Source: a virus. Taken from it: 54,016 bases of DNA. Both the position numbers and the translations under genes were made by a program. This document shows positions 2,797-53,991 of this stretch, in pieces. Position 1 is the stretch's first letter; every line of letters starts with the position of its first letter. Where the stretch lies: positions 1-54,016 of IMG/VR virus record IMGVR_UViG_3300009093_000056; one strand, written 5' to 3'. The notes under the pieces were generated by a model, which did no database searches, was not told the origin of the DNA, and was given only the letters and a program-made list of their open reading frames with translations.

Positions 2797-3150
2797 TTAC
2801 TCCTTCACGCCTCTGCGCACAAACCCGCCTAGCCGATCAGCGGCGTCACTGAAAGCCTTAAGCCGCTTGTCAATCTCGGCCCGAAGTTCCGGCGTCTGTT
2901 CCGCACTCTCGTAAAGATGCTCAAACGTTTCTCGTTCACAAACGTACGTCTCACCCATCGCGCCCTTGATGACCCAATCTCCAAGCCTGCACTCGTGGTC
3001 TCCACGAGGACAGGTAACGCGTATGGAGCCGCTGTTTCCGGGAAGTCCGTACGTCGGCAAATCGTGACCGATTAATGCAATGATGGGAGCCGTGTCGCCG
3101 GTCCACTGAACCGCTTCAATGACAATTGGCGTTCGGCGGAACTTGGGCAT
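2797..3150 (-). CDS. Conserved small phage protein (GDWVIKG family)
   Basis: 117 aa from the ATG at 3150, which overlaps the lysin stop as TGATG; a longer frame to 3168 is less likely. The N terminus (PKFRRTPIVIEAVQWTG) and the segment GDWVIKGAMGETYVCERETFE match a very widespread phage protein family of unknown function whose members read 'MKFRKKPVVIEAVQW...[21 protein letters not shown]'. Its place next to lysis genes is common for the family. Confidence 0.75.
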   Translation of the reverse strand: MPKFRRTPIVIEAVQWTGDTAPIIALIGHDLPTYGLPGNSGSIRVTCPRGDHECRLGDWVIKGAMGETYVCERETFEHLYESAEQTPELRAEIDKRLKAFSDAADRLGGFVRRGVKE

Positions 3151-3752
3151 CAGACCTTCACCATCCATCCGCCGCCGTTGCCACGGCTCACATCACCGTC
3201 CGCATTCATGCCCGCGATTGTGGCCGACGGGAGTTGCTTGAGGTTCCAATCGGCATAGTCGGCCCCGCTGTGTCCCGGTGATTGGTCTATCCATGTGAAC
3301 GAAACTAACCCTGCATCGTGCAGGAACTTGCAGACTGCGCCGGGTCCGTACACACCGACCTCGTACGTCGTCTTACCGATTTGACCGTGCCGCTGAAGGC
3401 TCTCTCGGACTGCCTGAAAATACTGGACTACTTTGGTCGGGTTGATGTCGAGATCGACCGCGTAGTAAATCGGTGAGTTGAACGGCTGTCCTAGATGTTG
3501 GCAAAAAGCGAATGAACCTGCTCCGTCCATTAGTCCCTGCGCCCGCGTGAAGTAGCTTTCCTGGTCGCCTATCTCCCACACGGTGCAGATGTAGATACCC
3601 GCCTTCGAAAGTGCCCGCACTTCCTCCGGTGTCATGTTCTTCCACGCACTGTGGGAGGCGTACCTGCACACGAAGGAGATGCCTGCCGCCTTGATCGCTG
3701 GAATATGGGGCGTGCAATCTTGAGTTGTATCGAGGCCGCGTGATGTGCTCAT
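3150..3752 (-). CDS. Endolysin-like DUF1906 glycoside hydrolase-like protein
   Basis: 200 aa. The ATG at 3752 overlaps the previous stop (ATGA) and has GGAG 9 nt upstream, so the longer frame upstream is rejected. GLDT at residues 6-9, an aromatic barrel strand VWEIGD at 58-63 and YYAVDLD at 96-102 fit the DUF1906 / Rv2525c-like TIM barrel, related to GH25 lysozymes and used by many phages for peptidoglycan degradation. Neighbouring small membrane proteins support a lysis role. No signal peptide, so export would need a holin. Catalysis is inferred. Confidence 0.75.
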   Translation of the reverse strand: MSTSRGLDTTQDCTPHIPAIKAAGISFVCRYASHSAWKNMTPEEVRALSKAGIYICTVWEIGDQESYFTRAQGLMDGAGSFAFCQHLGQPFNSPIYYAVDLDINPTKVVQYFQAVRESLQRHGQIGKTTYEVGVYGPGAVCKFLHDAGLVSFTWIDQSPGHSGADYADWNLKQLPSATIAGMNADGDVSRGNGGGWMVKV

Positions 3753-9482: not shown

Positions 9483-10324
9483 CAGGCGATACTCCCTGCA
9501 CAGAGGATGCGGCGGCGGCGGTTGCCGGTTGCGATGACGACTGGTATCGACCAAAACCGCCCCGTCTCCAGCCAGTTCCAGCGGTTGGGGTTGCCAGCCT
9601 TGGTTTCTTGGTAGAGAGCTTTACACTCCGCGTCTACAAGTCCTCGGTTGTAAATCGAAACACGACTCACCCATGATCCATTGGCAAGAGGAAAGGTGCC
9701 TGTTGACCGCTTGCCAATCGTTGTTGCTAAGCTCCTGCTCGTAAAAGTTAAAGTCGGTGACGATCCGGCTTTATTCACGCCGTTCAAAAATGTCTTGCCA
9801 AGATTATTCACCGCGCCTGAAACCGACACGATTAAATTGTATGGCGTGTTTGTCGCAATAGAGCCCGCAGTAGTAAACGAGTTAGCTCCGTAGCATCCCG
9901 CCATAAGCCGCGTGGTGCCATCAACAAAAACCTCAAATGAATTACCGTCGCTGGTGTACGAGGACAATAGGCCCTGGAAGGCAGACGTGCTAGTAACCAG
10001 AAAGTCAACGACGACTGTAAAATCGCTACTCGGCCAAATTCCCGCGGGTAACGAAATCTTGCTTGATCCGTCGAACTGGACGCGGCCATAGCTTCCAGGT
10101 GCTGCGCCACCGCGCCACCCAGACGGTGTGATCGCAGTGTCCAACGTGCCATCATGTGCATTCCTGCCCCCACGCACCAGGTCGCGGAAAGTCTGGCCGC
10201 CGCGCCACCCTGAGTTTGGCGGGATTGCCCACTCACTAGTTAGGCCAATGTTCAGCGGGTGCGACCAGTCAATCGGGCACGCAGGGTCCACTATCGCAGA
10301 AGTGCCGGGAATAATCCTCGCCAT
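9482..10324 (-). CDS. LamG / concanavalin-A-like tail protein
   Basis: 280 aa, with GGAGTGCC 4-5 nt before the ATG. A jelly-roll lectin pattern is clear: GRVQFDGSSKISLPAG, DFTVVVDFLV, a middle strand NTPYNLIVSVSG, TFLNGVNKAG, and IGKRSTGTFPL before SRVSIYNRGL. Phage LamG proteins of this type bind sugars or stabilise fibres. The final LYQETKAGNPNRW resembles a common phage LamG C terminus. Probably part of the receptor-binding apparatus. Confidence 0.75.
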   Translation of the reverse strand: MARIIPGTSAIVDPACPIDWSHPLNIGLTSEWAIPPNSGWRGGQTFRDLVRGGRNAHDGTLDTAITPSGWRGGAAPGSYGRVQFDGSSKISLPAGIWPSSDFTVVVDFLVTSTSAFQGLLSSYTSDGNSFEVFVDGTTRLMAGCYGANSFTTAGSIATNTPYNLIVSVSGAVNNLGKTFLNGVNKAGSSPTLTFTSRSLATTIGKRSTGTFPLANGSWVSRVSIYNRGLVDAECKALYQETKAGNPNRWNWLETGRFWSIPVVIATGNRRRRILCAGSIA

Positions 10325-13532: not shown

Positions 13533-16010
13533 CTACGGTATCACGCACGATGTGTGGTTGCCACGCACCGGTTTCCACGAGCGCGTATTCACGCTATTCC
13601 AAATCTGCCAATATAGGGTCACACCGGAAAGGTTCGTAGTGGTCCTCATAGTGATCCTAAAATCTAATTGGCCGAATGTTACGTTGTCCCACTCACGCCC
13701 TTGTAAAATCCGATTTGGAGCCCACCAGTGCCACGCTCCGTCGCCGATAAGCCATCCGTGGTCGAGATCAGCAGGAACGCTCAGATTAGCGCGCCAGTAC
13801 CCTTGCGTGAAGCCACATCCAGGCGCAGTATGCAGGCTCAGGAATTGGTAGGTGTAGTAGCCTTGCGCGTCAGGGCCTTCGACTGAAACTACGCCGATAG
13901 TAAAATCGGTGATCGTGTAGCAAGTGATGTTTCCGCTGATGCTTCCCGGCGTAGCCGAAAGGACCGCGCTTGCTAAACTCTCGTTTCCTTCGGCATCCAC
14001 TGAAGTGAGGTACACCCACACCTGCCCGGAAAGTCCAGGGCCGAGGATGCGGGCACCGGCTGCAGGGGTTGCGGTCGTGTAGAGAGAAAATCCGGTAAAC
14101 TCGCTGGTGGTCGAAAGGTAGACGTTGATGCTCACCACGAGCGGGTCGGTCGGAATGTCGTAAATCGCGGTCAACTCCGTGGGATCGCCTCCCACGATGT
14201 TGAGTTGCGTAAAGTTCGGTGCAGCAGTCGGCTGCGAAACGTAGGGAACCCACTCGGCATCTGCCGTCCACTGGCCGTACGTGATGTTGTGCTGCACGCT
14301 CACGAGGCTCCAGAGTTCACGGTTCCGTTTCGCTCCGGCGACGGTGCTCGGGCGAGAGAATAAGTTTGGGCGGGCAGGCGCGCGAAACCCGAAGATTTGC
14401 TTCAGCGCCGTCTCGAATGTCGGGCGAATGGTGTTCGTGAGTGTCTGCAGGTTCCACGCGTAGTCGCGGAGGAAGAACTGCGCGACCTTCAGGCGCAGGT
14501 CGGTTGTCGCTGCGAGCGGATCGGTGATCCTCGTCGTGCGCGTCCCGAACCTAGCGATGCTGTTTGGGTCGGAAAGTGTCAGGCTCCCGCTCCCGCTCTC
14601 CTTGCTCTTCCCGGTTTGAACGATCACGCGATTGCGCATGTTTTTGCCGGTACGATGCCGCTGACAGTTATAGACATCGTAGTTGCCGTCTGTAGCGGAA
14701 ACGCACACTCGATCGGGCAGTTTCTGGGTGTACGGCGGCTCGGTCGCGGTCATTGTGCCGTTTCCGTCGGCCAAGAAGTTCCAACCGACGACCGCAAATA
14801 GTTCCTGGCAGTACCCGAGGATGCTGTTCGTTTGCCCCTGCCACAGCGGGTACTGCAGGCCGGTCAGCCCGCTTCCACTCGACCACGCGATCTCCGAAAG
14901 CAGGAGCGGGTCGTTGTACCCCTCCTTCGCCGATTGGTTCCAATAAGCGGTCGAGGTCAACAGGCTGTGAACGATGTCGCCGAGTTCGACGCCGCCCGCA
15001 CTCGTGAGACGGTACGGGGCCGTCAGAAAAACGTCGTTGTTGTCTGCGAGCTTCTTGAGTGCATCGACCGCCACGCACTTCACGAGGCCCGCATTGCTGA
15101 AGTCGATCTGGTCGCCCATGTAACCGGTGAACAGATTTCCGCCGAGCGCGGTAAACTGACTGCCCCCGTAGACCGAGAGTTCGTCAATCCAGATCGTCTG
15201 AGCGCTGGTCGGTGTGACCGTAAACTTCACGTAGCGACCGGTCGTCTGCAAATCGCAGAACGCGAACTCCGGGATGTTCCCGGACGCGCTGTCGTCCCAG
15301 TCTCCGGGAGTGACGCCAGGGCTTCCCGCCCCGCCCACAGGACGCGCAGGCCAATCACGATAAACAAAACTGTCCGTGCTGACGCTCACCTGCACAGAAG
15401 AGGGGAGCGTGCAGGTGCCGGTCAGCGTTGCGAACCGGATCGCGGCGTGTTTTACATCTTTGCTTGATCCAAGATCGACGATCAGGGCAAACGGCGACGC
15501 GCTCGGTGCGTTGAAATGGCAATAGAGCGACGGCGCAAGAACCGCAGTCGTATCAAGTACGCCGTCGGTGAGCGCCGAGAGCGCAGCGGAACTGCCGCCT
15601 GAAGTCGCGAGCGTGCTGGTCGGAGTGATCCCGCTCGCGAGGTTGCTGTAGCAGTGCGCGCCGACGCGCAGGACGATCTTCCTCGCCTCGTCGAGCAATG
15701 GATCGTAGGCACCCGCTCCGTTGTAGTTGTAGGTGCTGTTTAAGTTCTCGCTGGCGTAGTTCCCGTCCGGGTCGGGCAGCGTAAATCCGAGCGTTGCGGG
15801 CTGCTTGAATGCCTGCGTCAGCACGAGCCCGGTGTCGGGTCCCGCGAACGGCTGCAGCGGGAATAGGTGCCACAGCGAGTCGCGCTTATACCAGAGTTCG
15901 ATTTCGTGCTCGACGTGAGCGGCGATCCGGTGCGTGCGCGCGGAGAGAGATTGCGCTGTGTTTCCGATCTCCGTGACTTTTGTGCCGGTAAGCGTGAAGG
16001 GGTTTGCCAT
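13533..16010 (-). CDS. Baseplate hub / tail-associated protein with discoidin and FN3 domains
   Basis: 825 aa. Residues about 115-283 look like an F5/8 type C (discoidin) domain (SALTDGVLDTTA, LIVDLGSSKDVKHAAIRF, RYVKFTVT, IWIDELSVYGG), a galactose-binding-like fold. The middle has the hub-type segment with ADGNGTMTATEPPY. Residues about 610-690 form a fibronectin III-like domain (VVSINVYLSTTSEFTGF, GQVWVYLTSVDAEGNES). It follows the tape measure, which is the standard place for the hub or Dit/Tal proteins. Confidence 0.75.
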   Translation of the reverse strand: MANPFTLTGTKVTEIGNTAQSLSARTHRIAAHVEHEIELWYKRDSLWHLFPLQPFAGPDTGLVLTQAFKQPATLGFTLPDPDGNYASENLNSTYNYNGAGAYDPLLDEARKIVLRVGAHCYSNLASGITPTSTLATSGGSSAALSALTDGVLDTTAVLAPSLYCHFNAPSASPFALIVDLGSSKDVKHAAIRFATLTGTCTLPSSVQVSVSTDSFVYRDWPARPVGGAGSPGVTPGDWDDSASGNIPEFAFCDLQTTGRYVKFTVTPTSAQTIWIDELSVYGGSQFTALGGNLFTGYMGDQIDFSNAGLVKCVAVDALKKLADNNDVFLTAPYRLTSAGGVELGDIVHSLLTSTAYWNQSAKEGYNDPLLLSEIAWSSGSGLTGLQYPLWQGQTNSILGYCQELFAVVGWNFLADGNGTMTATEPPYTQKLPDRVCVSATDGNYDVYNCQRHRTGKNMRNRVIVQTGKSKESGSGSLTLSDPNSIARFGTRTTRITDPLAATTDLRLKVAQFFLRDYAWNLQTLTNTIRPTFETALKQIFGFRAPARPNLFSRPSTVAGAKRNRELWSLVSVQHNITYGQWTADAEWVPYVSQPTAAPNFTQLNIVGGDPTELTAIYDIPTDPLVVSINVYLSTTSEFTGFSLYTTATPAAGARILGPGLSGQVWVYLTSVDAEGNESLASAVLSATPGSISGNITCYTITDFTIGVVSVEGPDAQGYYTYQFLSLHTAPGCGFTQGYWRANLSVPADLDHGWLIGDGAWHWWAPNRILQGREWDNVTFGQLDFRITMRTTTNLSGVTLYWQIWNSVNTRSWKPVRGNHTSCVIP

Positions 16011-16013
16011 AGG

Positions 16014-19000
16014 TCAGATCGGAATGTAGCGGTCGCGGGTCGTGTTGCCGAGATTGACGTTCAGGCTGCTGCCCTGGCTATTGATAACCTGCTGCGCCGC
16101 CACTTTCGCGCCATCGACGAATACATTCACGATTGGCACGTTCGTCGGCTTGACGGCAAATCCGACGTTCTGGAGAGTGGGGAACTTACCGTAAGCCGAA
16201 TAATCGTAAGCGGCGACGTTGAAGTTGCTGGGCGCGTTGTAGTACGCAGGGTTCAGGTCCTGCGGGGTTGCCGTCGGCTTATTGCTCTTGTGGAAGAGAC
16301 CGCCGATGAGATCGACCACACCGCCAATGCCTGCGCCAATAAGTGCGCCCGCTCCGCCAAACGTCGCGCCAATCGAGGAGCCGGTGGCTACGCCGCCAAG
16401 GAGATTGCCGAGATTAACTCCTTGTGACGCGCTGGTTGAGGCAATGCTATAAGCCGCCAAACCTGCGCCGAGACCTTTTTGTAGGTCGCTCTGTCCGGTG
16501 TTTCCCCGCTTCTTCGCGCCCGGTGCCTGCGTGCCGTCTGCTCCGGCTTCCAGTCCGCCAACCGCACCAGCAGCCGCCGCTGCCGCTCCCGCACCGAGTG
16601 CCTCCGCGACGCCGCCCGTGCTTGTCAGGTTGCCCGTGAAGGTTCCGGGGCCGCTTCCTGACAATGTGCTGTTGAGCGTGTCTAGCGAGACGCTTACCTT
16701 ATCCAGCGACAAGATTTCCTTCGTCGTTGCAATCACGAGCGGGTTGGTCAGTGATTTCACGAACGGCTGAAGCGCCGCGTTCACAATCTCGTCGCCCAGC
16801 CCCTTGAAGAGATCGCCGACATTCCCCTGACCATGTAAGAAACCGAGCACGGTTTGTTGTGCTCGGTTCTGGATCGGGCCGAGTACGCCCTGAACCTTGG
16901 CGCGGTCGAATTGTTCGAGTGCGAGGTTCGCCTGCTTGCGCGCGATGTCGGCGTTCTCGATGTCTTGCTTCGTCTTCTGCGACTGAGGCGCGCCATTCAG
17001 GAACGTAGAGACGAGGCTGAGTTGCGTGATGTCGGTGTACTTCTGTTGCGCAAACTCGGCCTGCTTGACGAGTTTCTGACGCTCCGGGAGAAGGGAACTC
17101 TCGATGTCGTTGATCTTGCGGGCGTACTTATCGTTGACTTCGGCGAACGTGGTCACGATGCCGCGCTGAAGGGTCTCTTCGGCAAGCCGCCTCTGCTGCG
17201 CCGCGTTATCTTCAAGCGCGTCGCGGAAGTGGGCAAGCCCTGCGACCACTTCCGGCAGGAATTGGTTCATCCCGCTCAGTTTGTCAATCGTGGCCTGAAT
17301 GTCGGCGGCATCCGCCTTGAGTGCATCCGACTGCGCAGCGGACTGGTCGCCGTAGAGGTCAGTAGACGGCAGTCCGCGCTGTCGCGACCGAATACTTTGA
17401 TCCGTCGCCTCTCCGAGATTGCGCGCCACGGCGTCGAGTATCTTGTCCCACGGGATCGACATATCTCCAAACGACGGTATCTGCCGCTCAAGCACGCCTT
17501 GGCGCTTGCTCGCAAATTCCGCCCCCGTGCCCTCTAAGCCGCCCCGAAGCCTGCGAAGCTTGTCCGTGTCACCTGACGCGATTGCGGCCGCTTCTTCGGC
17601 GCGCTGTGCCGCCGCTGCCGCCGCGCCCGTTGCGCCTCCGTTCGGTCCACTGAACAGCCCGTGCTTCTGGAGCGCGAGGTCGTAGTCAGTACGCGCGGAT
17701 TTCTCCATGCTGTCGCGCAGATTACGGTACTTCTCTTGCGCGTCCTTGAGTTGTTCTTCGGTCTGTTGCTTACTCTCAGCGTTCGTATCCGCGAGGTTTC
17801 CAGAAAGCCCGAGCCGCAATCGTCGGCGCGTGTCTTCATCGCCCGCCGCTGCCGCCGCTGCATCTGCCGCCGCCGCTGCCTGTTTTGTTTCCGGGAAGTC
17901 GGGGCCATAAAGTTTCTTGACGAACTCGAACTGCGTTTGCAGGCGCTTCGCTGTTTCGTCGAGCGCCTCCTGGCGCGCTTTCTCGGCTTCGTCGGCTGCT
18001 TTCTGCGCCGCTTTGTCGGGAGGCGGAGTGTAGCCCCCCTTGACGTGGAGTGTGCTGGAATTTGGGTTTGCAGGCTGAAGTCCGGAATTTCGACCGAAAG
18101 ATGGTGACTGGAGTTGCCCGTTCAATCGATCGTATTCTGCTTGCATGGCCGCAAGATCAAACGTTACGTCGCGTACTCCAGGACCCGCCAAGGCACCCTG
18201 CGTGGGCGCAAACTGCATAAACCGCTGAAGATATCCTCGTTCCTGGGCCGTCTTGTTGCGATACAGATCGTACACGCCGCCGTCGTTACCGAAGTGTGCA
18301 GCGCCCCCGAACATTTCGGTAGTGGTTACGTTTCCGTGTACGCCCGCTCCTCGCGCAGCCTCAAGCATCTCCTGCAGAGTGGCGCGCTGCATCCTTGCCT
18401 GGCTGTTAACTGCTCTAGGGTCGCCGGGGAACGCACCTCGCCCAGACAATATGCCGCCCATTGTGCCGTTGTTCGTCGCTATGTTTCGCGACTCGTTGTT
18501 GATCCTCTGAATGCCGTCGGCGATGTCCCGCAGGAAGTTGCGCAGCCCGCTAGCGTCGATCGCATTCGAAATCGCCGTCATTGCACCGCCCCAGGCTCTT
18601 TGAAACTCCTGCGCGGTCGTGGTCATTGTCTGGCGAAGTTTATCGGTCTCGGTAGTCAGTCCATGCGTGCTCTTTGTGGCATCGTCTAGCTTTTCCTGAA
18701 TAACACGGAGGAACTCGGGATTGACGGTCCCGAAGAGCCTCCACGCGTTTTGCGTCCCACTGATCGCTTGCGAAAACTTCTGAGCAGTCGCGACCGGCAT
18801 ATGGCTCGCGACTTCGTTGAAGTTCTTCATCGTCTGGATAAGGTCGAGACCGCCGGAAGGAGTTAGCCCTGCCTGCAGAGTCGCGCCCTTATTCGAGATC
18901 ATGCCCGTCGCGGGATTGAAGTTCTTGATGATCTGGCTGATTAACTGGCCGGACTCTGTTCCTCCCATTCGACCCCGGACACCTTCGAAGGTGAGTGCGG

Positions 19001-42162: not shown

Positions 42163-42263
42163 GTAGATGTGAGAACGAACTAAATACAGAGACATCCCGG
42201 AACGGTACCAACCTCTACCTGCAACCCCGAAGTGGACAAGCAGGAAAAGCCGAGATGTGACCA

Positions 42264-42314
42264 CTAGCAGACAGAGGATGGATTGCAGGCTCGCTGCCTG
42301 CCTGCTGGTTTATC
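42264..42314 (+). ncRNA. Leader RNA element B1 (TCGCT loop)
   Basis: Outer stem AGCAG (42266-42270) with CTGCT (42302-42306), a 14-nt one-sided bulge ACAGAGGATGGATT (42271-42284), inner stem GCAGGC/GCCTGC (42285-42290 with 42296-42301) and loop TCGCT, then GGTTTATC. B2 at 42605 has the same plan. It lies in the 185-nt leader of the 42348 gene. Confidence 0.55.
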
Positions 42315-42596: not shown

Positions 42597-42604
42597 GACT
42601 GTTA

Positions 42605-42656
42605 CCGCCGTCAGAGAATGGACCCTCCGCTCGCTGCGGAACGGCGGTTTGATCCT
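42605..42656 (+). ncRNA. Leader RNA element B2 (TCGCT loop)
   Basis: Outer stem CCGCCGT (42605-42611) with ACGGCGG (42641-42647), a 14-nt bulge CAGAGAATGGACCC (42612-42625), inner stem TCCGC/GCGGA around loop TCGCT (42626-42640), then TTTGATCC. The stems share almost no sequence with B1 while bulge length, CAGAGRATGGA, loop and the GGTTTRATC flank are kept. Precedes the 42694 gene. Confidence 0.6.
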
Positions 42657-42906: not shown

Positions 42907-42995
42907 GTCACACAAGCAAAAGCTGCCGGGTTTCGAACCTGCACAGTTCCCCCGGCCGCACGTCCCCTCATGGTCACGAAAGGACAGTTAAGATT

Positions 42996-43163
42996 ATGGC
43001 ACAGACGGATTATGAGCGCGCCGTTCAGCGCGTGGCAGAAGTTCTCAAGCGCAAATCGCCGCAAACGTTGGCTGCTATTCGCTCATGGGTTAAGGCGGTC
43101 GGATCGGACGCTATCCTATCCGCAACGAAGCGCGATATTCGCGAATGCGCAGGAGCGTTCTAA
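42996..43163 (+). CDS. Early small helical protein
   Basis: 55 aa, AAAGGACAG before the ATG. Helical and basic (YERAVQRVAEVLKRKSPQTL; IRSWVKAVGSDAILSATKRD). It overlaps nothing and ends 2 nt before the ParB start codon, suggesting coupling to it. Its leader contains GGTTTCGAACC (palindrome) and a GCCGGG/CCCGGC pair. No family recognised. Confidence 0.55.
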   Translation: MAQTDYERAVQRVAEVLKRKSPQTLAAIRSWVKAVGSDAILSATKRDIRECAGAF

Positions 43164-43165
43164 CC

Positions 43166-44314
43166 ATGAACGACCGAATATTACAGATCCCACTCCATGA
43201 GATCATAGCCGGTGAAAACGACCGGCTGCAATTCAATCAGGACGCGCTCCGCGAACTGGCAGAGAGCATTCAATCAATAGGGCTTGCGCAACCGATTACC
43301 GTTCGGCCGATCATGCAGGACGGCGAACACATCGGACTGTACGAGATCGTAGCGGGCGAACGGCGATTCCGAGCGTGCAAGCTGCTAGGGATGGAAACAA
43401 TTCCGGCGCTCGTTCGCGAAATGACCGACGAGAGTGCAGTCGCAATTATGCTGGCTGAGAACCTACAGCGCGTAGACATCAGCCCGCTTGAGACCGCGAA
43501 AGCGTTCCGCAAACGGATCGATCAATTCGGATGGACGCACGAAGAGATAGCCAGTCACGCGAACGTCAGCGCGTCCCTAGTCGCGCGCCGTCTTAAACTC
43601 CTCGGCTTATGCCCGGAAGCCGCATTCCTACTCGAAAAGCAGAACCTTCCGATCGGACATGCCGAAGTCATGGCGCAACTCGACAGTAACCGGCAAATGC
43701 TTGCGCTCCGGCTATTCCAGGGCAGCCGCGCACCGAGCCTGCAAGAGTTCAGAACTTATTGTTCGCATCTCATGGCCGAACAGACACAAGAGTCTATGTT
43801 CGATCTTACCGAGTGCATGTATCAGACGCAGGTCGCAGCCGTGGCGGAAGTCACCACGAAACGCGGCGCGGGCGTGCAGACACACCCGAACTTGCCGACC
43901 GCGAAAGCGAAAAAGACGATCGCGGAGACAATCGAGCAGTACATCGCGGATCTATCCGCCGTCGGGCAGTCGGGTATGGCGCTCGCGATATGCAATCTGT
44001 ACGACGCGCTCGTATCGAACGGAATGACGAACGTTCCGGCCTCTCGCCTCTTGCCGTCGTCGCTGATTGATAGCGGCGAAGTTGTCAGACCGACCTACTT
44101 TAACCGCGCACGACCGGCGCAGAATGGCACAGGTGACAGCATGAACACGACTACCGCCGAACTGCTATCCGCACTCGAAACCGCACAGAAGATCATTGCC
44201 ACCGCGCGCCAATACTTCCCGAAGTCAATTCGGAACTCGGATCGGTTCGCGCTTGAGGCCGCATCAGCAGAGATCGGCAAAGCTATTCATAAGGCAACGG
44301 AGGTAGAAGCATGA
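43166..44314 (+). CDS. ParB-family partition protein
   Basis: 382 aa, with AGGAG about 11 nt upstream. N-terminal ParB/Srx-type domain: LAESIQSIGLAQPITVRP at 31-48, GERRFRA at 64-70 (CTP-binding box) and AENLQR at 97-102. The HTH domain follows (WTHEEIASHANVSASLVARR at 123-142), then a linker and a C-terminal domain. This is a CTP-dependent clamp that loads at parS. No ParA or parS is present next to it. Phage ParB proteins can also act as regulators. Confidence 0.85.
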   Translation: MNDRILQIPLHEIIAGENDRLQFNQDALRELAESIQSIGLAQPITVRPIMQDGEHIGLYEIVAGERRFRACKLLGMETIPALVREMTDESAVAIMLAENLQRVDISPLETAKAFRKRIDQFGWTHEEIASHANVSASLVARRLKLLGLCPEAAFLLEKQNLPIGHAEVMAQLDSNRQMLALRLFQGSRAPSLQEFRTYCSHLMAEQTQESMFDLTECMYQTQVAAVAEVTTKRGAGVQTHPNLPTAKAKKTIAETIEQYIADLSAVGQSGMALAICNLYDALVSNGMTNVPASRLLPSSLIDSGEVVRPTYFNRARPAQNGTGDSMNTTTAELLSALETAQKIIATARQYFPKSIRNSDRFALEAASAEIGKAIHKATEVEA

Positions 44315-45300: not shown

Positions 45301-45355
45301 TTTTACAAAATACCTAGTTTTACCCCTTGACAACCGGTACTAGGTATTGTAAAAT
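45301..45355 (+). promoter_or_regulatory. Early promoter P3 within a long inverted repeat
   Basis: TTGACA (45327-45332), 17-nt spacer, TAAAAT (45350-45355). TACCTAGT (45311-45318) and ACTAGGTA (45339-45346) are perfect inverted arms; they extend to TTTTACAA(AA) on the left and TTGTAAAA on the right, about 16 bp in all with a 2-nt insertion. The right arm covers the spacer and the -10, so a bound protein would block transcription. Confidence 0.7.
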
Positions 45356-45375
45356 TAACCTATCACAAACACACA

Positions 45376-45403
45376 GGCGAGCCGCGCTGGAACCGCGATC
45401 GCC
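45376..45403 (+). ncRNA. Hairpin A1 with CTGGAAC loop
   Basis: GGCGA (45376-45380) pairs with TCGCC (45399-45403) and CGCG (45383-45386) with CGCG (45394-45397), around the loop CTGGAAC (45387-45393). 24 nt later is the start of the 45427 gene. Confidence 0.55.
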
Positions 45404-45426
45404 GCGACGAAGAGGAGACTACGAAG

Positions 45427-45642
45427 ATGATTAAGGCAAAACTGTTTGACAGCCCAGCAGACAAGTATGGATGCGATGTGATCGCGCATTTTCCAACAGA
45501 CGGTAAGCCTTATCTGACCTATAGTGACGGCACGCGAATTCGCGGCAAGGCAATCGCCGACGTTTTCGCGTCTGGCTTGACCGCAAGCCAGATCGAACTT
45601 CTGAAGTCCGCAAATTACCCCATCGTCGGAACTAAGGAGTAA
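45427..45642 (+). CDS. Early hypothetical protein
   Basis: 71 aa with GAGGAG before the ATG. Begins IKAKLFDSPADKYGCDVIAH, then GKPYLTYSDGTRIRGKAIAD and helix TASQIELLKSANY. A small beta-rich domain with a C-terminal helix. Family not recognised. First gene behind promoter P3, with hairpin A1 in its leader. Confidence 0.6.
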   Translation: MIKAKLFDSPADKYGCDVIAHFPTDGKPYLTYSDGTRIRGKAIADVFASGLTASQIELLKSANYPIVGTKE

Positions 45643-45644
45643 TC

Positions 45645-45989
45645 ATGGACACATTAAGCCCAGTTGAGTTTTTAAAGTCGTTTGACAACACGAGACTCGT
45701 CCACTGCATCCAGACGCCGTTATCCGTCGCAGGGCTGAATAACCTGCTGGAAGAGCATAACGGCGCAGGGGACTTCATTTCGAAATCTGATTGGCCGAGG
45801 GCTGTAGAAGCAGCAACTTACAATGAGCGGTTAATCCGAGACGGGATCGGATTGACCTACGAAAACGGATGGCTCGTGATGTACCACGGCTCGCAGCGCA
45901 AAGCGTATCGAGGATCGTCGGTGGAAGGTTGGGGCAGCGGTCTAACTGACAGCGACCGCGAATATGCCAGATCGTTTTTCGAGAAGTAG
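45645..45989 (+). CDS. Early hypothetical protein
   Basis: 114 aa, AAGGAG before the ATG, 2 nt after the previous stop. It has PVEFLKSFDNTRLVHCIQ, SDWPRAVEAATYNERLIRD and DGIGLTYENGWLVMYHGSQR. Mixed alpha/beta. No family. The stop lies 9 nt before hairpin A2. Confidence 0.6.
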   Translation: MDTLSPVEFLKSFDNTRLVHCIQTPLSVAGLNNLLEEHNGAGDFISKSDWPRAVEAATYNERLIRDGIGLTYENGWLVMYHGSQRKAYRGSSVEGWGSGLTDSDREYARSFFEK

Positions 45990-45997
45990 GGTTAGTC

Positions 45998-46025
45998 GGG
46001 GCGCGCCGCTGGAACCGGCCGCCCC
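45998..46025 (+). ncRNA. Hairpin A2 with CTGGAAC loop
   Basis: GGGGCG (45998-46003) with CGCCCC (46020-46025) and GCCG (46005-46008) with CGGC (46016-46019), loop CTGGAAC (46009-46015), one bulged C. The stem sequence differs from A1 but the loop is identical. The 46048 gene starts 22 nt later. Confidence 0.55.
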
Positions 46026-46047
46026 CGGACGACAAAGGACAAAAAAA

Positions 46048-46314
46048 ATGAACTATGTGATTTCATCCAAGCAACGATTTAACACCGCCGAAGAGGTGTT
46101 CTCGGCAGCATCGGACCCGATCGGTATGCGCGGTAACCTCTGCGTAGAGCAAATCACGCAATCGCCGCGCCGCACTCGCATTGTGGTTGAGTGCAACGCT
46201 AAAGGGGCATGGTACGGATCACTTGGCGGCTACTACAATGCCGCGCAATTACTGGCCCATGACATGGGCGCAAAAATTAGGGAAGCAAAAGAGAGTGATT
46301 TGCGGGGCGCGTGA
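46048..46314 (+). CDS. Early hypothetical protein
   Basis: 88 aa from the ATG at 46048 (AAAGGACAAAAAAA upstream). RFNTAEEVFSAASDPIGMRG, then RIVVECNAKGAWYGSLGGYY and the helix NAAQLLAHDMGAKIREAKE. Its stop lies inside hairpin A3. Small alpha/beta protein of unknown function. Confidence 0.6.
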   Translation: MNYVISSKQRFNTAEEVFSAASDPIGMRGNLCVEQITQSPRRTRIVVECNAKGAWYGSLGGYYNAAQLLAHDMGAKIREAKESDLRGA

Positions 46315-46330
46315 CTGGACTCACCGCCCC
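46304..46330 (+). ncRNA. Hairpin A3 with CTGGAC loop
   Basis: GGGGCG (46304-46309) with CGCCCC (46325-46330) and GTGA (46311-46314) with TCAC (46321-46324), loop CTGGAC (46315-46320), one bulged C. The 5' stem includes the stop codon of the 46048 gene. It precedes the 46381 gene by 50 nt. Confidence 0.5.
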
Positions 46331-46380
46331 CGGCCCGCCAGGAGACAGCGGGCATACTCAGTTTACCAGGGAGACAACCA

Positions 46381-46557
46381 ATGCCGCGATACATCCTATC
46401 CAACATCAAAGGCCGCGTCGTGTTCGTGCGGCCAGATATGCCCCGGACGCCGATTATCCAGGTGTTTAGCCACTACGGACAGGCCGAAACGAAACGCGCG
46501 GTAGAGCTGATCCAGAAGGCCCTTGAGGCGGAGGAACAAACCAGTGGGCAAGATTAA
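46381..46557 (+). CDS. Early small protein
   Basis: 58 aa, below the usual cutoff, with CAGGGAGACAACC before the ATG. It reads PRYILSNIKGRVVFVRPDMP, then IIQVFSHYGQAETKRAVEL and an acidic helix EAEEQTSGQD. Overlaps the next gene's GTG by 14 nt. Function unknown, but the good ribosome site, the leader hairpin and coupling support it. Confidence 0.6.
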   Translation: MPRYILSNIKGRVVFVRPDMPRTPIIQVFSHYGQAETKRAVELIQKALEAEEQTSGQD

Positions 46558-53299: not shown

Positions 53300-53991
53300 C
53301 GACAACACCCATTCTCGCCTGGCATTTTCGAGATGCAGGCGGCACAACGAGCCGATTAGCCAAGCCCGAACATGTCGGCGTTCGCTATTCCGTCACACCG
53401 CCCGTTGTCTGCTGCTCAAACGGGCTTCACGGCTCGATCCGAGCGATCGACGCTCTGGAATACGCATCCAGCACCACCGCGATTATCTGCCGAACTTCCC
53501 ACGAAGGCGAGATTGACAGGCAGCACGACAAACTCGCGTCTGAGCACCGGACGGTTCTGTGGCAAGCGGACTGCACGATGGCACTCCACGAGTTCGCGTG
53601 TCTGTGCGCCGAGCAGTCGTTCGAGATCATCAAGAAACGCGGGTCAGTAGTTGCGCCGGAAATGCTGGCTTGCGTTGATGCAAAGCGCAAGTGGATGCGC
53701 GGAGAGATCAATTCGGAAGAATTGGCCGCTGCCAGGGACGCTGCCTGGGACGCTGCCAGGGACGCTGCCTGGGACGCTGCCAGGGACGCTGCCAGGGACG
53801 CTGCCTGGGACGCCGCCTGGGACGCCGCCTGGGACGCTGCCAGGGACGCTGCCGCTAATGCGGCATCGGAAATCCAAGGCGCCAAGCTTCTCCGCGAGCA
53901 CGGAGAACCTTTCTTCTTTCTCCCGATGTTCGGCTTCGACAGCCCGGAAGCGATTCCGGCGCGCCCGAGCAACTACGGGCAGACTGCCTAG
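53296..53991 (+). CDS. DUF7666-type protein with AAWDAARD repeats
   Basis: 231 aa, ATGA overlap. ILAWHFRDAGG, VTPPVVCCSNGLHGSIRAID, LHEFACLCAEQSFEI and DAKRKWMRGEINSEELAAAR are landmarks of DUF7666, a widespread phage family with unknown function that often ends in a run of AAWDAARDAA helix repeats; here the run covers about residues 143-195. Last complete gene in the window. Confidence 0.75.
   Translation: MTTTPILAWHFRDAGGTTSRLAKPEHVGVRYSVTPPVVCCSNGLHGSIRAIDALEYASSTTAIICRTSHEGEIDRQHDKLASEHRTVLWQADCTMALHEFACLCAEQSFEIIKKRGSVVAPEMLACVDAKRKWMRGEINSEELAAARDAAWDAARDAAWDAARDAARDAAWDAAWDAAWDAARDAAANAASEIQGAKLLREHGEPFFFLPMFGFDSPEAIPARPSNYGQTA
53732..53856 (+). repeat. 12-bp tandem repeat in the DUF7666 gene
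   Basis: About ten copies of GACGCTGCC(A/T)GG with a few C/T changes. They encode the repeat DAA(R/W). Length change by replication slippage is likely. Confidence 0.8.

Follow-up and report, generated by a model that had tools for sequence, protein, structure and literature searches.

A fixed-loop RNA hairpin recurs upstream of exchangeable early genes in a group of related viruses

What role do three short hairpins with nearly the same loop play in the spacers between early genes of an uncultured bacterial virus? The window, by which we mean the entire stretch of DNA analyzed here (54,016 bases of the virus record IMGVR_UViG_3300009093_000056), looks incomplete when judged against a 72.5-kb relative. 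A first-pass annotation of the sequence had described the hairpins, and its coordinates, loops, and stems were confirmed. They are listed here with their state in three related virus records, designated G001, G297, and G298:

45376 to 45403, plus strand: hairpin A1, loop CUGGAAC; identical in G001 and G298, with 1 base different in G297
45998 to 46025, plus strand: hairpin A2, loop CUGGAAC; starts 8 nt past a stop codon
46304 to 46330, plus strand: hairpin A3, loop CUGGAC; G001 and G298 have A2-type sequence at the same place

All three share one design, consisting of an outer stem of 6 pairs, a bulged C on the 5′ side, an inner stem of 4 pairs, and the loop CUGGA(A)C. Aligned as 28-nt elements, they read GGCGAGCCGCGCTGGAACCGCGATCGCC, GGGGCGCGCCGCTGGAACCGGCCGCCCC, and GGGGCGCGTGACTGGA-CTCACCGCCCC, with A3 lacking one loop base. 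When each was folded alone, the same two-part stem was obtained, with minimum energies of −12.5 (A1), −19.0 (A2), and −16.7 (A3) kcal/mol. Fold z-scores reached −2.2 for A2 and −3.5 for A3 but a modest −1.3 for A1, so that for A1 fold energy alone is no proof. The one-sided bulge that had been claimed is not a pure one in A1: there the bulged C adjoins a G.A mismatch, and the two form an internal loop (GC/A).

Pairing was scored against the consensus structure ((((((.((((.......)))))))))) over the three-row alignment of A1 to A3. Standard pairs filled 29 of 30 pair cells (96.7%). As had been proposed, stem letters differ while pairing is kept: among these three independent stems (most of the 13 copies described below are near-identical duplicates), 6 of 10 pairs had changed on both sides compared with 2.1 expected from shuffling, and 1 of 500 shuffles reached the observed count. 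The signal was lost when the partner was slid by 1 to 3 bases. With a hairpin defined for counting by the loop CTGGA(A)C, an inner stem of at least 4 pairs, and an outer stem of at least 5, the window holds three matches inside 955 bases, all on the plus strand. By the same definition, dinucleotide-shuffled windows gave 0.063 matches each, and 3.36 Mb of other loci gave 0.19 for every 54 kb.

We also searched for relatives of the virus. The terminase led to IMGVR_UViG_3300013307_000003 (G001; 72,529 bases), which is ~95% identical to the window over long stretches; matches between the two run across the ends of G001, which would be the case if the molecule were circular or circularly permuted. 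Two more records, 3300025914_000010 (G297) and 3300009551_001102 (G298), came from scanning IMG/VR with a pattern; in them, a covariance model built from A1 to A3 detected six copies (one degenerate) and two copies, respectively. The search for the loop in related phages that the first-pass annotation had proposed thus gave ten further copies, one degenerate, in three records. Across the four records, all 13 copies lie on the coding strand in the early region. Two of the G297 copies, both on contig L293, depart from the design: the 3′ arm is broken at 17041, and the bulged C is absent at 14816. Either an intact 3′ arm and the bulged C are not strictly required or these copies are decaying; in both cases they are natural variants useful as controls. 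Elsewhere on L293, positions 3114 to 3184 (minus strand) match the Rfam int-alpA RNA (RF02996) at 50.1 bits.

Beyond this group, searches were negative. The first IMG/VR pattern matches were at chance level, as were those in terminase relatives at 50 to 56% identity and in 291 genomes from the phylum to which a Chthonomonadales genome belongs. Three individual matches were dismissed: one genome match of 32.0 bits sits in a run of repeats, another of 31.7 bits differs in pairing pattern and loop, and a match in L034 (26.8 bits) resembles an ordinary terminator, T run included. From 2.9 million viral contigs, two scans of greater specificity returned contigs of G001, G297, and G298 only. The collection scans demanded stem letters, so that members whose stems are very unlike these may exist in other phages. 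Rfam 15 had no match in the window (the best over the region, at E = 4.3, was below the cutoff), a literature search on the loop sequence found nothing, and no DNA-level relatives of the window were found among sequenced phages and plasmids. The phage group carries an integrase. The nearest terminases in bacterial genomes (53% identical) belong to Chthonomonadales (Armatimonadota), which gives only a hint of the host.

The genes between the hairpins are largely exchanged among the four records, and the hairpins remain. The open reading frames (ORFs) concerned and those that follow them are:

45427 to 45642, plus strand: 71-amino-acid (aa) ORF behind A1; unrelated ORFs stand in its place in relatives
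45645 to 45989, plus strand: 114-aa ORF within the exchanged segment
46048 to 46314, plus strand: 88-aa ORF whose TGA stop lies inside the 5′ arm of A3
46381 to 46557, plus strand: 58-aa ORF behind A3; kept in G001, with only its start present in G298, where the contig ends
46544 to 46741, plus strand: 65-aa basic protein, 85 to 92% identical in G297 and G001; neighboring genes are not conserved

In G001, A1 is unchanged and is followed by an unrelated ORF that replaces the 71-, 114-, and 88-aa ORFs, and then by a hairpin of A2 sequence with an A3-type downstream flank. No family match was found for any of the three replaced ORFs.

The A3 locus offers a direct comparison of two stem states. 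The inner stem here is CCG/CGG in G001 and G298 versus TGA/TCA in A3, so that three neighboring pairs differ on both sides with pairing kept. The TGA in the 5′ arm is the stop codon of the upstream 88-aa ORF, the frame of which would otherwise continue through the hairpin. On the assumption that the A2-type sequence is older than the A3 state, this change amounts to a natural compensatory-mutation experiment, and it is the strongest single piece of evidence for selection on pairing. Selection on a hairpin at the RNA level is well supported because stem changes are compensatory, the loop is fixed, the element is retained despite gene turnover, and the orientation is that of the coding strand in 13 of 13 copies.

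The copies fall into two classes by genomic context. The A1 class comprises five copies, each closely preceded by a sigma-70-type promoter and by operator-like repeats that resemble one another; in the window, these elements are:

45311 to 45318 (TACCTAGT) and 45339 to 45346 (ACTAGGTA), plus strand: operator-like inverted repeat, present in the sequence and flanking the −35 box
45327 to 45355, plus strand: sigma-70-type promoter TTGACA-17-TAAAAT upstream of A1, agreeing with the consensus at 11 of 12 positions

A promoter of this type precedes every A1-class copy, and the hairpin lies ~15 nt from the predicted transcript start. The repeat is conserved with changes in relatives and is a putative operator. 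The block common to the class runs from promoter to hairpin to Shine-Dalgarno sequence to start codon, and the genes behind it differ. The remaining copies form the A2 class, which includes A3. These are located between genes, and a promoter scan found none of their own. By script count, they start 1 to 13 nt past the upstream stop codon or overlap it, with two exceptions in G297: the copy at 10239 is 102 nt from the upstream stop, and that at 14816 is 43 nt from the longest open frame, or 12 nt from the TGA of an ORF at 14546 to 14803.

Homology between the phages follows these boundaries. Exchanged modules are bordered by homology that ends at the hairpin or shortly past the start codon. In most A2-class comparisons, the common DNA begins at, or a few bases from, the first G of the hairpin, and for the A2 leader homology stops within 3 nt of it. 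The hairpin itself is therefore the minimal shared unit. Such edges, with exchanged genes between them, are what would be seen if the repeats acted at the level of DNA, providing short homology for cassette recombination, with the hairpin incidental. We regard that explanation as distinctly improbable: recombination would conserve letters rather than pairing, whereas the stems vary with compensation and the loop alone is fixed, and the hairpin is always oriented with the gene.

The position of the hairpin relative to the ribosome-binding site is also constrained. The first AGGAG or AAGGA downstream of each hairpin was taken as the Shine-Dalgarno-like sequence. It begins exactly 9 nt past the 3′ end of the hairpin in 10 of the 13 copies (11, 16, and 21 nt in the others), and the 9-nt gap is kept across three dissimilar spacers (GCGACRAAG, CGGACGACA, and CGGCCCGCC). 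The corresponding features of the window are:

45413 to 45417, plus strand: Shine-Dalgarno sequence AGGAG, 9 nt past A1
46035 to 46039, plus strand: Shine-Dalgarno-like sequence AAGGA, 9 nt past A2
46333 to 46353, plus strand: second hairpin GCCCGC-CAGGAGACA-GCGGGC, with AGGAG (46340 to 46344) in its loop, 9 nt past A3

Start codons follow the hairpins by 23 (A1), 22 (A2), and 50 (A3) nt, in agreement with the 22 to 50 nt given previously. From the extent of the 30S footprint, the first two distances put the hairpin at the upstream edge of the initiating 30S subunit. In A3-type leaders in general, a second hairpin, GCCCGC-CAGGAGAC(T)A-GCGGGC, carries AGGAG in its loop. This AGGAG at +9 is not the Shine-Dalgarno sequence of the present gene, the start codon in the window being 50 nt away; in one A3-type copy of G297, an ATG lies 10 nt past it. 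The second hairpin may be a remnant or may serve as an additional point of control.

These constraints bear on two further explanations. The hairpin could form the 5′ end of mature early mRNA, protecting it or being cut by an RNase; this end would be the native one after a promoter (A1 class) and a processing cut between genes (A2 class). A role of this kind in stability or processing would explain why hairpins stand both at the 5′ end of a transcript and right after mid-operon stops, but alone it leaves the fixed loop, the bulge, and the 9-nt gap unexplained, and we consider it unlikely. We find it improbable that the hairpin is an antitermination site of the nut or put kind, loading a factor onto RNA polymerase or acting on it both early and mid-operon. 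Like putL and nut sites (PMC9378689), A1-class copies do follow early promoters directly, but there are many copies per operon, some of them in mid-operon, and terminator-like sites are few and no commoner than in shuffled sequence. Furthermore, put has two stem-loops against the one 28-nt hairpin here, and antitermination gives no reason for a fixed distance to the ribosome-binding site. The antiterminator offered as an example in the first-pass annotation is disfavored on these grounds.

We instead favor, with moderate confidence, the reading that the hairpin is a cis-acting RNA leader, most likely a translational operator for exchangeable early genes. Taken together, the sequence comparisons favor the initiation of translation as the step concerned and a leader of cassette-like character, which one genome alone could not reveal. 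A shared RNA operator is suggested because the fixed loop, the near-constant bulge, the paired but variable stems, the orientation, and a single Shine-Dalgarno distance recur before unrelated genes. The structure, compensatory changes, recurrence, orientation, and spacing of the hairpin were computed; from them we infer protein binding, translation as the controlled step, and the direction of effect. The earlier proposal of a protein-binding RNA hairpin thus stands as to an RNA hairpin under selection, and its protein-binding part is suggested by the fixed loop and bulge.

Several other identities were considered for the hairpin and rejected. No T run follows A1, A2, or A3 on the coding strand, as an intrinsic terminator would have. 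The loop of 6 to 7 nt and stem of 6 plus 4 pairs do not fit a lambda-type nut boxB (a 5-pair hairpin with a GNRA-like pentaloop), and a 28-nt hairpin with loop CTGGAAC/GTTCCAG misfits an integron attC site (GTTRRRY and RYYYAAC boxes; folded site of >50 nt). An anticodon-loop reading (CUGGAAC as 7 nt with anticodon GGA) does not suit the 6-nt loop of A3, and support for it was not found. Loop-loop antisense control by the phages was not supported, the complement GTTCCAG being absent from the examined parts of G001, G297, and G298.

Other conserved elements lie nearby. A putative small RNA on the minus strand of the window (45275 to 45150), conserved in all four records, has a divergent consensus promoter (45267 to 45238) and, after it, a segment that contains a small hairpin at the 5′ end, TTGCGTCTCACACCTTT, and a hairpin rich in GC, the last with a T run in the window and G001. 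As a partner of the leaders it was rejected: it pairs no better with them than with shuffled leaders. Three more conserved potential hairpins (42241 to 42300, 42604 to 42648, and 42920 to 42960) each precede an early start codon; they are common to the related phages, their adjoining genes differ, and their loops are unlike those of A1 to A3.

Among known systems, the arrangement is closest to the Start-Associated Sequences (SAS) and Extended SAS (ESAS) of Cluster K mycobacteriophages. These short repeats lie just upstream of many nonstructural start codons and occur in phages that differ in the genes that follow; a role in translation initiation has been suggested for them (PMC3203893). Likewise, all 13 hairpins here precede early genes in the coding orientation. 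SAS is asymmetric and 13 bp long, and ESAS is an inverted repeat of 17 bp that is conserved in sequence with a variable spacer (PMC3203893). The hairpins here, in contrast, keep the loop constant and change letters in the stem without loss of pairing. The 13-bp SAS sequence GGGATAGGAGCCC, which sits at the ribosome-binding site, is not present in the leaders examined. The proposed local mechanism is closest to the gp43 operator of T4 and RB69, a conserved-loop hairpin just upstream of the ribosome-binding site; that operator is a single autoregulatory site, a hairpin of 16 to 18 bases with a UAAC-type loop (PMC3014915). The present element differs in its loop and in its many copies before unrelated genes, and its repressor protein is putative.

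The coat-protein operators of MS2 and PP7 have a bulged A and cover the start codon of one gene. Like them, the hairpins described here stand where translation starts and have one bulged base on the 5′ side, a few pairs beneath a small loop, but the bulged base is C, the loops are different, and no coat-like RNA-binding protein was identified, so that the "coat-type binding site" of the earlier annotation fits as a geometric analogy only. PeSL units of T4-type phages combine an early promoter and a terminator stem-loop at gene boundaries, in regions where genes are intensely shuffled (cited in PMC4503421). Compared with these units, the present hairpins are similar in being repeated stem-loop units at the boundaries of exchanged modules and different in having no terminator tail, no promoter in the A2 class, and a fixed loop. 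The HK022 put RNA (~70 nt) has two stem-loops and acts on RNA polymerase (PMC9378689); A1-class leaders are likewise structured RNA directly after an early promoter, but with one stable 28-nt stem-loop at a fixed distance from the ribosome-binding site. Because a defining feature of sequence or structure is missed in each case, the hairpin falls outside SAS/ESAS, put, and PeSL. With the repressor of a gp43-type operator putative here, we place it among phage leader elements as a new variant and assign it to none of these systems.

Which protein would read such an operator? One possibility is a host regulator of the CsrA type, for which every loop offers a GGA upstream of the Shine-Dalgarno sequence. 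CsrA/Rsm sites present GGA in the loop of a hairpin, usually as ANGGAN. Of five terminase-related Armatimonadota genomes, two encode csrA; however, the gene was found neither in the phages nor in any of the three Chthonomonadales genomes tested, and two positions before GGA the hairpins have C where A is preferred. We consider this assignment highly improbable.

The first phage-encoded candidate regulator is the conserved 65-aa basic protein, which has an invariant basic N-terminal stretch. It looks more like a DNA-binding ribbon-helix-helix protein and may act on the promoter. Of two conserved neighboring proteins with predicted structures, this one gave at most a weak ribbon-helix-helix-like model, and the model of the other was unusable. 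Elsewhere in the window, positions 43145 to 44314 encode a ParB-like protein with ParB_N and HTH_ParB domains, and the C-terminal part of the protein encoded at 53308 to 53991 is a tandem repeat of the AARDAAWDAARDAAW type. The exchanged cassette genes of G297 include a short ORF with a near-cutoff ParB_N match. Neither the 71-aa ORF nor the ParB-like protein yielded usable relatives when searched singly.

In the mechanism that we propose, a putative trans-acting RNA-binding protein, encoded by the phage or the host, would read the loop and bulge, and the bound protein would alter access of the 30S subunit to the adjacent ribosome-binding site. Any gene set behind the leader element would then enter one regulon. 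As a translational operator, the 28-nt element would be all that the phages need to put newly gained accessory genes under a single control, and it would be half of a new RNA-protein pair whose loop and bulge are defined. More tentatively, the phages may possess a plug-and-play regulon composed of one RNA-binding protein, a standard leader (hairpin, 9 nt, Shine-Dalgarno sequence), and interchangeable accessory genes. Were this true, newly acquired early genes would fall under common translational control at once. The element would link gene-cassette shuffling with sequence-specific RNA control, which are usually seen apart in phages.
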